From: Protaetiibacter intestinalis | Lineage (GTDB): Bacteria > Actinomycetota > Actinomycetes > Actinomycetales > Microbacteriaceae | Reading direction: 5' to 3' | Length of the DNA: 64,000 bases | Assembly (NCBI RefSeq): GCF_003627075.1 | Contig: NZ_CP032630.1 | Coordinates: 992,001 to 1,056,000, forward strand | Shown here: positions 19,996 through 58,435 of the stretch, in pieces | Layout: every line of letters begins with the position of its first letter | Position numbering within the stretch: the stretch's first letter is position 1 | Made by a program: the position numbers and the translations under genes | The notes under the pieces: generated by a model | Database searches by the model: none | Told to the model about the DNA's origin: nothing | Seen by the model: the letters and a program-made list of their open reading frames with translations, nothing else

Positions 19996-20042
19996 GGTCG
20001 GTTTCTGGCCCCAAACCGATGGTTTGGGGCCAGAAACCGACC
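19996..20042. repeat. long palindrome centred between divergent promoters
   Basis: Perfect 22-bp inverted repeat (arms 19996-20017 and 20021-20042) with a 3-nt loop GAT. Each arm contains GGTTTCTGGCCCCAAACC, itself a partial palindrome. The centre (20019) lies within about 2 bp of the midpoint between the two divergent -10 elements, and the arms cover both -35 regions. Confidence 0.9.
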
Positions 20043-32489: not shown

Positions 32490-32526
32490 GTGGTCCGGTG
32501 GGTGGCCCCGCCACCCACCGGACCAC
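32490..32526 (-). terminator. strong intra-operon hairpin between binding-protein and permease genes
   Basis: Perfect 16-bp stem (32490-32505 and 32511-32526, left arm GTGGTCCGGTGGGTGG) with a 5-nt loop, starting 6 bp after the binding-protein stop codon. It would act as a partial terminator or 3' stabiliser, making more binding protein than permease. Confidence 0.75.
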
Positions 32527-38834: not shown

Positions 38835-38910
38835 GGTCAAACGCTGCAGCGCTTTGCCCTCCGCTACGGCGATCGCTGCCGCCACCGGCCCAACGCTGCA
38901 GCGTTTGACC
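38835..38910. repeat. inverted repeat at the end of hpt
   Basis: Perfect 17-bp arms (38835-38851, GGTCAAACGCTGCAGCG, and 38894-38910) around a 42-nt loop. The right arm lies within the perfect palindrome AACGCTGCAGCGTT. It begins 2 bp after the hpt stop codon and may serve as its terminator. Confidence 0.85.
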
Positions 38911-39491: not shown

Positions 39492-39543
39492 GCGGTTTCG
39501 GCCGGATGGCGGGCGCGCGCGGATGCCATCCGGCCGAAACCGC
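39492..39543. repeat. inverted repeat between tilS and hpt
   Basis: Perfect 19-bp arms (39492-39510, GCGGTTTCGGCCGGATGGC, and 39525-39543) with a 14-nt loop, 10 bp beyond the tilS stop codon. The arm shares CGGTTTC followed by GGCC with the palindrome at 19996-20042. Confidence 0.88.
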
Positions 39544-39553
39544 GCCACGCGCA

Positions 39554-40648
39554 TCATCCGGCGGCGGAGAAGACCAGGAGCGGGCCCTCGCGGCGGGCGG
39601 TGAGGCCCGGCAGGTCGATGGGCCCCTGGCCGTGCCAGTCGGTCACGAGCCGCGCCACCTCGAGCGTGTGGGCGCGCGTGAGCGACACCCCGAACTCGGC
39701 GAGCACGACGTAGCGGATGACGCGCTGCCGCAGCGCAGCCGGGTTCGCGGCGAGCGCGGCGACCGCGACGGCGACCCCGGCCTCCGCGGGCTCGCAGATG
39801 TCCTCGATGAACTCCTCGATCTGGTGCGCGAAGGCCTCGCCGTCCTCGCGGGCCTGCTCGGCGGTGCGGGCGAGCGCCTCGGCGACGCCCGGCCCGAGCT
39901 CCGCCTCGAGCACCGGCAGCACGCGCTCGCGCACCCGCACGCGCGCGTACGACGTGTCGGTGTTGTGCGGGTCGTCCCACGGCTCGAGCCCCTCGTCGAG
40001 GCACGCCTGCCGGGTCGCCGCGCGGCGGATGCCGAGCAGCGGGCGGCGCAACAGGCCGGCATCCGCCGTCATGCCCATGAGGCTCCCCCCGCCGCTCCCG
40101 CGGGCGAGGCCCAGCAGCACCGTCTCGGCCTGGTCGTCGAGGGTGTGCGCGGTCATCGCGAGGCGGGCGCCCGTCTCGCGCACGGCGTCGAAGATCGCGG
40201 CGTAGCGCGCATCCCGCGCCGCCGCCTCCAGGCCGCCCCCGCCGCCCACCTCGACGCGCGTCACGACGACCGGGTCGAGGCCGAGCGCGCGGGCCTGCTC
40301 CGCGGCGCGCGCGGCCACCGCATCCGAGCCCTCCTGCAGCCCGTGGTCGACCACCACCGCCCCCGCGCGGATGCCGGCGCGCGGCGCCTCGAAGGCGGTC
40401 GCCGCCGCGAGCGCGAGCGAGTCCGCCCCGCCCGAGAGCGCCACCAGCACGAGCGGTGATGTCGAAAATGCAGGAGATTCGCCCGCCGACGCGCCCGCTG
40501 CTCCGCGGATACCGCGGGGCGCTGCAGAATCTCCTGCATTTTCGACATGGTTCGGGGACGCCGCGAGGTCGGCGAGCGACTCGCGCACGGCGCGGCGGAT
40601 GTCGGCGCGGGCGGGCGTCAGACGCGGACGCGGGGAGTCGGAGGCCAT
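39554..40648 (-). CDS. tilS: tRNA(Ile)-lysidine synthase carrying an in-frame palindromic insertion
   Basis: TilS converts C34 of the minor isoleucine tRNA to lysidine using ATP. The PP-loop SGGADS is at 72-77, with [15 protein letters not shown] and [18 protein letters not shown] following. The usual N-terminal helix is at about 16-31 ([16 protein letters not shown]). Between helix and PP-loop lie about 30 extra residues (34-64, Ala/Gly/Pro/Ser-rich), encoded exactly by the 90-bp inverted-repeat element at 40459-40548. The start codon follows a leaderless-type TAACGT. The enzyme should still fold, since the insert precedes the first core strand. Confidence 0.93.
40459..40548. repeat. 90-bp palindromic element inside tilS
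   Basis: Perfect 22-bp arms (40459-40480 and 40527-40548; the inner part of the arm is AAAATGCAGGAGATTC) enclose 46 nt that contain a second small hairpin (CCGCGG, 3 nt, CCGCGG). The length is a multiple of three and the element keeps the tilS frame open. The arm shares CAGGAGATT with the repeats at 56171-56320. Confidence 0.92.
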
Positions 40649-43850: not shown

Positions 43851-43920
43851 CTCCGCGAAAGTACGTACTTTTGGGCTCCGCGGCGGCGCGTCGGGCCCAA
43901 AAGTACGTACTCTCACGGAG
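43851..43920. repeat. inverted repeat upstream of tRNA-Glu
   Basis: 26-bp arms (43851-43876 and 43895-43920) with two mismatches, of which the inner 17 bp (AGTACGTACTTTTGGGC) are perfect. The loop is 18 nt. Each arm carries the palindrome AGTACGTACT. Confidence 0.88.
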
Positions 43921-54539: not shown

Positions 54540-56051
54540 GTGAACTTCATCTCCGAGAACGTCACCGTCTTCGCCGTGATCGCGCTCATCATCGTCGCGC
54601 TCGCGATCTTCGGCTTCATCGCCGGACGCATCAAGCGGGTTCCGCCGAACTCGGCCATGGTCGTCGTCGGCCGCGGCGCCGGCGGCAAGGTGGCCGAGCC
54701 GGATGCCGGCCAGCGGGTCGTGATCGGCGGTCGCGTGTTCATCTGGCCGATCCTGCAGCAGGGCTTCCTCGTGTCGCTCGAGCAGCGTCAGATCGGCATC
54801 GCGGTGGAGGGCGTCGACAAGAACTTCATCAAGCTCGCCATCCAGGCATCCGTCAACTTCAAGGTCTCGGGCACCGCCGAGGGCGTGCGCCGCGCCGCCC
54901 AGCGCTTCCTCTCGCAGCAGAACTCGCTCACGCAGATCATCCAGCAGTCGCTCGAGGGGTCGCTGCGCTCGATCATCGGCAACATGCCGATCCAGGAGAT
55001 CATCTCCAACCGCAACGCGCTGTCGGAGGCCGTGGTCGAGGCGACGAAGGCCGACCTCGCCGAGCAGGGTCTGCAGGTCGACCTGCTCAACATCTCCGAC
55101 ATCTCCACACCCGGCACGAGCTACCTCGCCGACCTCGGTCGCGCCGAGGCCGCCCTCGCCCGCCAGAACGCGGAGGTCAAGGAGGCCGAGACGCAGCGCG
55201 CGGCCGAGTTCGCCCGCATCGAGGCCGCCGAGCAGATCGCCGAGCGTCAGAAGGCGCTCTCGCTCAAGCAGGCCGCCATCAAGGCGGAGACCGACCGCGC
55301 CAACGCCGAGGCGAACGCCGCCGGCCAGCTCGCCACCGCCGAGCAGGACAAGATCGTCGCCGTACAGCAGCGCGACGCGCTCGCCGAGCAGGCCCGGGTG
55401 GAGCAGGAGCGCCTCGACATCTCGGTGCGCAAGCCCGCCGAGGCCGCGGCTTACGCGACCGTGCAGGCGGCCACCGCCGAGCGCGACGCCGCCAACGCGG
55501 CGACCGAGGCGGATGCGTTCAAGCGCACCAAGATCGCCGAGGCGAACAAGGTGGCCGCGGTGCAGGACGCCCAGGCCGCCGCCGAGGCGGTGCGGCTCGC
55601 CGGTGTCGCCGAGCGCGACAAGCAGGTGGCGCTCGCCGAAGGTATCAAGGCCGAGGGCGAGGCGAAGGCCGCGGCCGTCGCCGCCGAGGGTCTCGCCGAG
55701 GCGAAGGCGATCGACGCCAAGGCCGAGGCGCTCAAGAAGTACGGCGAGGCCGCCCTCGCGCAGGAGATCATCGGCCGCCTGCCGGAGATCACCCGCGCCG
55801 TGTCGGAGCCGCTGTCGAAGATCGGCAACCTCACCGTCATCTCGAACGAGGGCGCATCCGCCGTCACCAAGACGGTCACGGATGTGGCCTCCGAGATCCC
55901 CGCGGTCGTGAAGAACCTCACCGGGCTCGACCTCTCGGCGCTGCTCGGCGGCGCCGCGGGTGCCGCGCTCGGCGGCTCCGACCTCGCCGCCACGGCGAAG
56001 CGGGCCGCCGCGAAGGCCCCGAAGCCGACGGACGCACCGCCCGCGGTCTGA
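54540..56051 (+). CDS. SPFH/flotillin-like membrane scaffold protein
   Basis: The GTG start (MNFISENVTV) follows CCCCGAAAGG. One N-terminal helix (about 8-28) leads to a band-7/SPFH domain (about 40-210; SLEQRQIGIAVEGVDKNFIK). A long Ala/Glu-rich coiled coil follows (about 205-400, with repeated AEAN, AERD and EAKA segments) and a C-terminal region (LPEITRAVSEPLSKIGNLTV) typical of flotillins. It has 503 residues. Flotillins gather membrane proteins into fluid-state domains. Confidence 0.93.
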   Translation: MNFISENVTVFAVIALIIVALAIFGFIAGRIKRVPPNSAMVVVGRGAGGKVAEPDAGQRVVIGGRVFIWPILQQGFLVSLEQRQIGIAVEGVDKNFIKLAIQASVNFKVSGTAEGVRRAAQRFLSQQNSLTQIIQQSLEGSLRSIIGNMPIQEIISNRNALSEAVVEATKADLAEQGLQVDLLNISDISTPGTSYLADLGRAEAALARQNAEVKEAETQRAAEFARIEAAEQIAERQKALSLKQAAIKAETDRANAEANAAGQLATAEQDKIVAVQQRDALAEQARVEQERLDISVRKPAEAAAYATVQAATAERDAANAATEADAFKRTKIAEANKVAAVQDAQAAAEAVRLAGVAERDKQVALAEGIKAEGEAKAAAVAAEGLAEAKAIDAKAEALKKYGEAALAQEIIGRLPEITRAVSEPLSKIGNLTVISNEGASAVTKTVTDVASEIPAVVKNLTGLDLSALLGGAAGAALGGSDLAATAKRAAAKAPKPTDAPPAV

Positions 56052-56170: not shown

Positions 56171-56320
56171 CGCAACTCAGGAGACTTCGCACGTTTCGGC
56201 GCATCCGCAGCTCCCCCGCCCCGATCTCCTGAGTTACGGAAACCGCGGTTCTCGCAACTCAGGAGATTGCACGGGTGCGGCGCCGATTCCCGACGGAAGC
56301 GCCGGATCTCCTGAGTTGCG
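56171..56320. repeat. two tandem inverted repeats of the word CGCAACTCAGGAGAT
   Basis: Copies lie at 56171-56184 (forward), 56225-56238 (reverse, one mismatch), 56253-56267 (forward) and 56306-56320 (reverse, perfect). The forward-to-reverse spacing is 53-54 bp in both pairs. Confidence 0.92.
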
Positions 56321-56518: not shown

Positions 56519-58435
56519 TCAGAAGTCGAGGGGCGGGGCGTCGTCGTCGGTGAGGGGTGGGTAGTCGTCGTCCGGGGCCGCAGGAGTGGGGGCGGATGCG
56601 GGGGCGGATGCCACGGCCGGCGCGGGCGCGGGGGGCTCGTCGCCCGCGACGAGGGCGAGCACCGCGGCGCCGTAGGCCTCGAGCTTCTTCTCACCGACGC
56701 CCGAGACGGTGCCGAGCTCGGCGAGGCTCGCGGGCTCGGTGAGGGCGATGCCGCGCAGCGTCGCGTCGCCGAAGACGATGTAGGCAGGCACGCCCTGCGC
56801 GCGAGCGACGTCGGCACGCCACGCCCGCAGGCGCTCGAAGAGCGGCTGCGCCGCCTCGGGCAGCTCGGCGCCCGCGCTGCGCTTCTTCTGCTTGGCGACC
56901 CGTTCCGGCTCGCGCCGCAGCGACACCGTGCGCGATCCGTCGAGCACGGATGCCGAGGCCTCGGTGATCACGAGCGTGCCGTAGCCGTCGGTGTTGACGG
57001 CGAGCAGCCCCTGCGCGAGCAGCTGCCGCACCACCCCGCGCCACTCCTGCTCGCCGAGCTCGCCGCCGATGCCGTAGGTGCGCAGCTCGTCGTGCCGCTG
57101 CTGACGGATGCGCTCGGTGTCGCGCCCGAGCAGGATGTCGATGAGGTGCCCGGCGCCGAAGCGCTGGTTGCGCTCGCGCTGCAGGCGCACGATCGTCGAC
57201 AGCAGCTTCTGGGCCGGCACCGTGCCGTCCCACGCCTCGGGCGGCGCGAGGCAGGTGTCGCAGTTGCCGCACGGCTCGGAGGCCTGCCCGAAGTAGTTCA
57301 GCAGCTGCACCCGGCGGCACTCGACCGTCTCGCAGAGGGCGAGCATGGCGTCCAGGTGCTGGGATGCGCGCCGCTTGTAGGCGGCGTCGCCCTCCGACTC
57401 CTGGATCATGCGCCGCTGCTGCACGACGTCCTGCAGGCCGTAGGCGAGCCACGCCGTCGACGGCAGGCCGTCGCGGCCCGCACGCCCCGTCTCCTGGTAG
57501 TAGCCCTCGACCGACTTCGGCAGGTCGAGGTGGGCGACGAAGCGCACGTCCGGCTTGTCGATGCCCATGCCGAAGGCGATCGTGGCGACCATGACGATGC
57601 CGTCCTCGCGCAGGAACCGCGCCTGGTTGCGGGCGCGCACCCCCGCATCCAGCCCCGCGTGGTACGGCAGCGCCGGGATGCCCTCGGCCACGAGAGCATC
57701 GGCCGTCTTCTCGACGGAGGCGCGCGAGAGGCAGTAGACGATGCCCGCATCGCCCGGATGCTCGGTGCGGATGAGCTGCAGCAGCTGCGCGAGCGGCTGG
57801 TTCTTGGGCTCGATGCGGTACTGGATGTTGGGGCGGTCGAAGCTCGACACGAACTGCTGCGCGCCCTGCAGTTCGAGCCGTTCGACGATCTCGTGACGGG
57901 TGGCGGCGGTGGCCGTGGCGGTGAGGGCGATACGCGGCACGGTGGGCCAGCGCTCGTGCAGCACCGAGAGGCCGAGGTAGTCGGGGCGGAAGTCGTGCCC
58001 CCACTGGGAGACGCAGTGCGCCTCGTCGATCGCGAACAGGGCGATCGGGGCGCGGTCGAACAGCTCGCGCGCGCTCTCGAGCTTCAGCCGCTCGGGCGCG
58101 AGGTAGAGCAGGTCGAGCTCGCCCGCGAGCAGCTCCTGCTCGACGAGCCGTCGCTCGTCGGGGTTCTGCGTGGAGTTGAGGAACGCCGCCCGCACCCCGA
58201 GCGCGGCGAGCGCATCGACCTGGTCCTGCATGAGGGCGATGAGGGGCGAGATGACGACGCCCGTGCCCTGCCGCACGAGGGCGGGGATCTGGTAGCACAG
58301 CGACTTGCCGCCGCCCGTGGGCATGAGCACGACCGCGTCGCCGCCGCCCACCACCCGGTCGATGATGGCGCCCTGGTCGCCGCGGAATCCGGCGTAGCCG
58401 AAGACGCGGTGGAGGACCTCGAGGGGGGCGGGCAT
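56519..58435 (-). CDS. recQ: ATP-dependent DNA helicase RecQ
   Basis: RecQ unwinds DNA 3' to 5' in recombination and repair. The N-terminal motif 0 is [10 protein letters not shown], Walker [10 protein letters not shown] (about 38-46), and motif [21 protein letters not shown]. The RecQ-Ct zinc Cys are in [12 protein letters not shown] and EPCGNCDTC. The winged helix and a C-terminal HRDC domain (about 520-600) are present, followed by a Pro/Ala/Asp tail. It has 638 residues. Confidence 0.96.

Follow-up and report, generated by a model that had tools for sequence, protein, structure and literature searches.

BIMEs are mosaics of REPs in alternating orientation. As far as the accessible parts of the respective reports go, a REPIN is an inverted REP doublet that forms a hairpin and has a diverse interior (PMC8049555), and REPs are also described within genes, as dimers with spacers of similar length and, in the case of CGTC REPs, without a dedicated transposase (PMC3733652). 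Rickettsia palindromic elements (RPEs) are described in the same measure as palindromes of ~150 bp translated in frame within unrelated genes, 44 in all (PMC10969869), and in the mitochondria of Nematomorpha perfect inverted repeats are reported whose arms encode conserved parts of proteins (PMC6649704). A literature search at the level of titles and abstract openings, with few subscription journals covered, returned no description in Microbacteriaceae of units such as the one presented here.

The DNA analysed (hereafter the window) is a stretch of 64,000 nucleotides of Protaetiibacter intestinalis, whose closed genome comprises 3,097,107 bp. It encodes a TilS protein whose TIGR02432 match covers residues 67-245 and whose nearest named relatives by similarity belong to Homoserinibacter gongjuensis (80%) and Homoserinibacter sp. 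GY 40078 (70%). The initial annotation had reported, inside tilS, a 90-bp in-frame unit with perfect 22-bp arms, and its coordinates, arms and frame proved exact:

39554..40648, minus strand: tilS, tRNA lysidine(34) synthetase of 364 aa, the host gene (open reading frame; NCBIfam TIGR02432, E 9.9e-39)
40459..40548, no strand: class G palindromic unit of 90 bp, TilS residues 34-64 (sequence, family members)
40459..40480, plus strand: first arm ATGTCGAAAATGCAGGAGATTC, subtype TGTCGA (sequence)
40481..40526, no strand: interior of the unit, which varies among copies and species (copy and species comparisons)
40527..40548, minus strand: second arm, which repeats the first exactly in inverted orientation (sequence)
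40466..40541, no strand: 76-bp core AAATGCAGGAGA-52-TCTCCTGCATTT (genome scans for pairs)

The arms, of 22 nt each and 46 nt apart, are 100% complementary. A chance hairpin was ruled out on three counts: (i) perfect inverted repeats of at least 16 bp within 120 bp occur several times in the window and in none of 50 first-order Markov copies, (ii) the 14-mer AATGCAGGAGATTC has two matches in the window at up to two mismatches, for 0.07 expected, and (iii) half-sites AAATGCAGGAGA with at most one mismatch number 43 in the genome of P. intestinalis and 0 in the reversed control.

Other palindromes were also noticed in the window and around tilS. Perfect inverted repeats whose arms measure 17-22 bp and whose spans are 37-52 lie at 19996-20042, 32490-32526, 39492-39543 and 43860-43911, and a palindrome with arms GGTCAAACGCTGCAGCG and a span of 76 is located at 38835-38910, between ftsH and the gene upstream. 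In H. gongjuensis a palindrome (CAAACGCTGCAGCG, span 70) is likewise found near tilS. Other Microbacteriaceae have perfect palindromes near tilS (arms 24-34 bp, spans 63-69), in a set of 80 tilS loci for which the Markov control yielded six repeats of at least 13 bp in total:

L031, 3998-4063
L080, 4057-4121
L081, 2358-2421
L090, 4003-4065
L099, 2315-2383

When the 90 bp of the tilS unit were searched by BLAST against the same genome, 70 matches were obtained, many of them corresponding to the two arms or to the whole of other units. The family to which it belongs, class G, is defined by arms AAATGCAGGAGA / TCTCCTGCATTT, an outer distance of 76-77 bp and unrelated interiors; 23 units were resolved in the scan of the fetched stretches of this genome, and a 24th, with shorter arms, in yeiH brings the family to at least 24 copies. 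The identical 15 perfect pairs were recovered when any gap of 44-74 was permitted, all gaps being 52 or 53, and among the perfect genus pairs listed the core measures 75-77 bp. Two arm subtypes exist, TGTCGA-AAATGCAGGAGA, found for instance in tilS, tlyA and yeiH, and one that is mostly CTCCAG-AAATGCAGGAGA or a sequence near it, and the units at 124844 and 924194 are hybrids of the two. The proposal of a mobile or copied family was thus borne out in its repeated-family part, since inverted arm pairs occur genome-wide. The tilS arm had also been said to share sequence with repeats 16 kb away; on this point the result differs, as those repeats, at 56173-56318, form a separate class S:

56173..56236, no strand: class S unit, arms CAACTCAGGAGA / TCTCCTGAGTTA, outer distance 64 (sequence scan)
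56255..56318, no strand: second class S unit, arms CAACTCAGGAGA / TCTCCTGAGTTG, outer distance 64, starting 82 bp after the first

In all, three class S pairs were seen over 532 kb of sequence from the genus, including the two of this tandem. It sits between the genes at 54540-56051 and 56519-58435, which we take to encode an SPFH-like protein and a RecQ-like helicase, respectively.

Within the genus, perfect class G pairs are present in eight of nine genomes (G000 to G008: 15, 7, 16, 12, 12, 2, 10, 0 and 1). At the family level the strict pattern was matched, patchily, in 15 of 299 sampled genomes, which belong to 9 of 85 genera, the places given for each genome being the first ones only. A wider spread across the order was rejected, as pairs occur in 1 of 248 genomes, that of P. 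intestinalis itself. No phage contig matched the strict pattern, and phage-borne units were discarded as well: a looser pattern matched five contigs of 31-40% GC whose arms are mismatched to each other, which was read as chance. A neighbouring gene is shared with a unit of another genome by 19 of 23 P. intestinalis units (intact-arm units plus four degenerate ones, the yeiH unit being left out), where a shared locus means neighbour proteins of >55% identity within 900 bp, irrespective of site alignment; two such loci are common to P. intestinalis and to G045, a genome of another genus. According to our own open reading frame heuristic, 10 of the 83 genus units lie in tilS, tlyA or smc, 3 are unplaced and the remaining 70 occupy convergent (37), tandem (25) or divergent (8) intergenic gaps, against 55, 113 and 34 of the 202 adjacent gene pairs at the same loci.

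The intragenic units fall into two kinds. A single joined query served to compare tilS, tlyA and smc across the nine genus genomes. In tilS and smc, extra linker residues accompany the pair. The tilS pair is present in six of the nine genomes, with one core change in G002 and a drifted sequence in G004; no recognisable pair is found in tilS of G005, G007 and G008. The expectation of about 30 extra residues held: the stretch from PRLTP to SGGADS has 70 residues in P. intestinalis and 40, 38 and 40 in these three congeners, whose tilS therefore lacks 30-32 linker residues. In smc, G001 and G002 have class G pairs, and so do G004, with one change, and G006, with one change per arm; smc of P. intestinalis carries a class S pair, so the candidate reading of its arms as drifted but still paired was dropped. 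No pair was found in smc of G003, G005, G007 and G008, where the stretch has 72-82 residues versus 88-127 elsewhere. Neither an exact empty site nor a target site duplication could be demonstrated at the nucleotide level, because the linker DNA and the flanks of the short forms have diverged. Losses may also account for the short forms, as the tlyA arms of G008, a short-form genome, look eroded. In other genera, tilS linkers carry other palindromes, namely CCTTCCGAAATGACGGAGATCCGG in Rhodoglobus, TGTCTGCCGGATTCGGAGA in Agromyces salentinus and CGTCGGAAACTCAGGAGA in a Microbacteriaceae MAG (66 of 80 loci parsed, 14 dropped).

In tlyA and yeiH, the arms lie over native codons. The length of the tlyA stretch is 81 residues in each of the nine genus genomes, whether arms are present or not: the cores are perfect in G000, G001, G002, G004 and G006, the left core has two changes in G003, the arms look eroded in G008, and no recognisable arms are found in G005 and G007. 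Conserved native sequence forms the interior, and the left arm can be aligned gap-free with the PEIA.DPRV codons found in other genera. Outside the genus the stretch has 76 residues at 24 of the 26 loci parsed out of 27, and 75 and 79 at the other two (one of the 30 loci of the survey was unparsed and left out); the right-arm stretch is thus 5 residues longer in the genus, and an old insertion is possible there. In G047, outside the genus, tlyA bears a different perfect pair (TCGGAAATTCAGGG, outer distance 106) whose left arm lies over the same native codons; together with the palindromes in tilS linkers of other genera, this marks both genes as recurrent hosts. The yeiH gene product belongs to PF03601, and its arm peptides flank the conserved segment TP.ALVTLFGT. 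Among the 47 of 120 best homologues that fitted the motif (73 were unparsed and left out), all of equal length, both arm peptides occur in 25, neither in 17, the left alone in 4 and the right alone in 1; the arm DNA was seen in P. intestinalis only. Judging from these homologues, the yeiH pair can be there or be missing without insertion. Since in tlyA and yeiH the pair exists without any change of length, the unit consists of two arms and the distance between them. Insertion of the palindrome as a whole, the initial annotation's view, suits tilS and smc, whose linkers are shorter in relatives lacking the pair, and fails in tlyA and yeiH, where arms at an equal distance overlie native codons without indel; the interiors, moreover, are near background. 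The comparison then made with Rickettsia holds for the translated extra residues of tilS and for nothing beyond that gene.

The conservation of the unit was compared with that of its surroundings. In G000, G001, G003 and G006, the 12-nt tilS arm cores are identical in all six species pairs; identity is 74-83% over the 300 nt that start at the PP-loop and 46-62% over the interior, which has 52 nt throughout. All 10 tilS arm codons end in A or T in each of these four genomes, versus 2-11% of the other codons; in the six arm-bearing tlyA genes this holds for 4-5 of the 6 codons of the right arm, versus 5-18% in the rest, and the left arm is only mildly unusual (2-4 of 8). The identical cores and the A/T-ending arm codons of tilS indicate that what is conserved is DNA and not peptide; as far as codon comparison goes, protein constraint alone does not yield the arm codon pattern of tilS and tlyA. 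Interiors of the same genus genome score on average 8.07 (496 pairs) versus 7.42 for shuffled ones (n = 2500), and the best same-genome pair reaches 18.0 versus 17.0, so that a slight likeness among some of them is possible. Among 68 orthologous interior pairs, only the ten from tlyA stand out. A weak motif, CCCCG..CGGGG, was detected in the interiors of 55 units of 76 bp (70.2 bits versus 59.4 for the best of 20 shuffles); as it is weak and off-centre, the idea of a symmetric interior centre was discarded.

The reading that we favour, to which we give an even chance, is that the palindrome in tilS belongs to a set of dispersed bipartite sites, each read by a putative factor that would need both the arm sequence and the distance. 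Such a site would consist of two inverted arms of ~12-22 bp with core edges 76-77 bp apart, the interior sequence mattering little in the genus; the factor would read the pair, and the arms would be kept at the DNA level for that reading. The architecture would be that of a REPIN-like doublet and the genus population would be old and mostly inherited in place, the pair bringing extra translated linker residues in tilS and smc and being written over native codons in tlyA and yeiH. The factor, the joint reading of both arms and the beneficiary are what we infer. The factor would probably have been lost in G005, G007 and G008; the scarcity of pairs in these three congeners and the eroded tlyA arms of G008 suggest that arms would decay once it is gone. 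The similar interiors of G045, the arrays of G138, the gain of length in tilS and smc, which insertion would also produce, the mild codon bias of the tlyA left arm, the view of the yeiH arm DNA in a single genome and the patchy distribution speak against a bipartite site.

How new sites would arise is a separate matter, and here writing in place is conceivable but improbable. A resident near-match, for instance the native PEIA.DPRV codons of tlyA, would become the first arm, and an inverted copy would be laid at a fixed distance over the sequence that happens to lie at that place, whether coding or non-coding, leaving native DNA as the interior; a protein with a ~76-bp ruler would be the writer or the reader. 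This would explain at once the unrelated interiors, the rigid distance and the overprinting without indels.

Among the known systems, the likeness to REPINs is the closest one to weigh: the units have two inverted conserved arms and a diverse interior, and they are dispersed, long inherited and mainly intergenic. They differ in their single rigid distance and in arms that overlie native codons without indel. An active selfish replicator of REPIN or BIME type, in which the doublet would be copied as a single-stranded hairpin by a putative transposase, the ends being conserved because the enzyme requires them and the copies in genes being tolerated passengers, is possible and clearly less probable than the bipartite site. 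The REPIN definition, as given in the accessible part of PMC8049555, is matched by the doublet with its diverse interior, and the excess of convergent gaps noted above shows a preference for gene ends. Further points come from other genera. In G138, class C units (arms AAATCAAGGAGA, with a strongly conserved interior containing GATC..GTGTGACTC) alternate with class G units in 11 of the 12 fetched stretches that contain at least two units, with gaps of mostly 27-29 and 37-39 bp:

G138, stretches L284-L291, L293, L294 and L297: alternating arrays

A stretch outside the array analysis, L296, apparently has two successive class G units. The alternation of two classes recalls BIMEs; the alternating items here, however, are whole palindromic pairs, and the genus of P. 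intestinalis has short tandems at most. In G045, the arms are AAATG[CA]AGGAGA, the interior is class C-like and the interiors resemble each other (55 pairs, mean 14.2 versus 7.0 for shuffled ones). In G138 and G045 together, the two arms of a unit covary, with 52 double changes versus 23.2 in shuffled controls and 5 in the best slid control. Against such a replicator, the genus interiors show no recent copies and the indel-free overprinting of tlyA and yeiH is unlike unit copying. In addition, Y1_Tnp (PF01797), the RAYT domain, was found in none of the nine genus genomes and none of ten other unit-bearing genomes, versus 5 of 14 control genomes, so that a RAYT-driven REPIN was rejected for all 19. 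No GTAG/CGTC tag was seen on inspection of the consensus arms of classes G, S and C; candidate stem-loops CAGAA-N10-TTCTG or CCAAA-N10-TTTGG can be read by eye in many arms. The bipartite site may serve the host or be a resting REPIN-like replicator, an option which the signs of copying in G045 and G138 keep alive.

It is quite unlikely that the units act as RNA, a transcribed hairpin of ~20 bp ending or protecting transcripts or being bound as such. Many copies have perfectly pairing arms, most lie at gene ends, and the arm-arm covariation of G138 and G045 agrees with pairing; in the genus alignment A2, however, the arm core is invariant and covariation is weak (44 versus 33.4, a value reached by 19 of 500 shuffles), and the units in tilS, tlyA and yeiH would have to act inside the message. 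A known structured RNA was rejected too, as a search of six unit loci against Rfam at E up to 1 matched none of the units and returned only tRNA and 5S rRNA elsewhere in these loci. Less probable still is a purely mutational origin, in which template switching between short inverted repeats would keep perfecting the arms with no reader involved. Homogenisation of arms without indels is a known outcome of this process, according to the accessible parts of PMC8604942 and PMC7202029, and tilS of G004, with paired arms in a drifted sequence, would suit it; one arm sequence and one distance throughout a genome are left unexplained. Least probable of all is that a resident insertion sequence sharing the ends of the unit mobilises it as a MITE or RPE-like element, since its terminal inverted repeats (the MITE-like trait), its 90 bp in frame in tilS and the shorter linkers where it is absent are set against unrelated interiors, a yeiH overprinted without change of length and, in the scan at up to one mismatch, a single half-site outside any 76-77-bp pair, so that no insertion sequence with these ends is visible in this genome.

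Two resemblances can be delimited further. Like an RPE, the tilS unit is palindromic and translated in frame; by the accessible description of RPEs (PMC10969869), the present units differ in having 76-90 bp, in occupying few genes and in being present in tlyA and yeiH without insertion. Whereas the Nematomorpha palindromes are coding inverted repeats of mitochondria, here one consensus pair with one distance recurs across a bacterial genome.

For the genus, these results mean that TilS, TlyA, a YeiH-family transporter and SMC are encoded by genes in which a DNA signal is superimposed on the protein code, with a genus-wide span, and that the tilS arms use codons ending in A/T, which the rest of the gene avoids. 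As a single genus contains species with 7-16 and species with 0-2 perfect pairs, the hunt for the factor becomes a direct comparison of gene content. With REPIN-like doublets present and RAYT absent, what keeps or copies them becomes the question.
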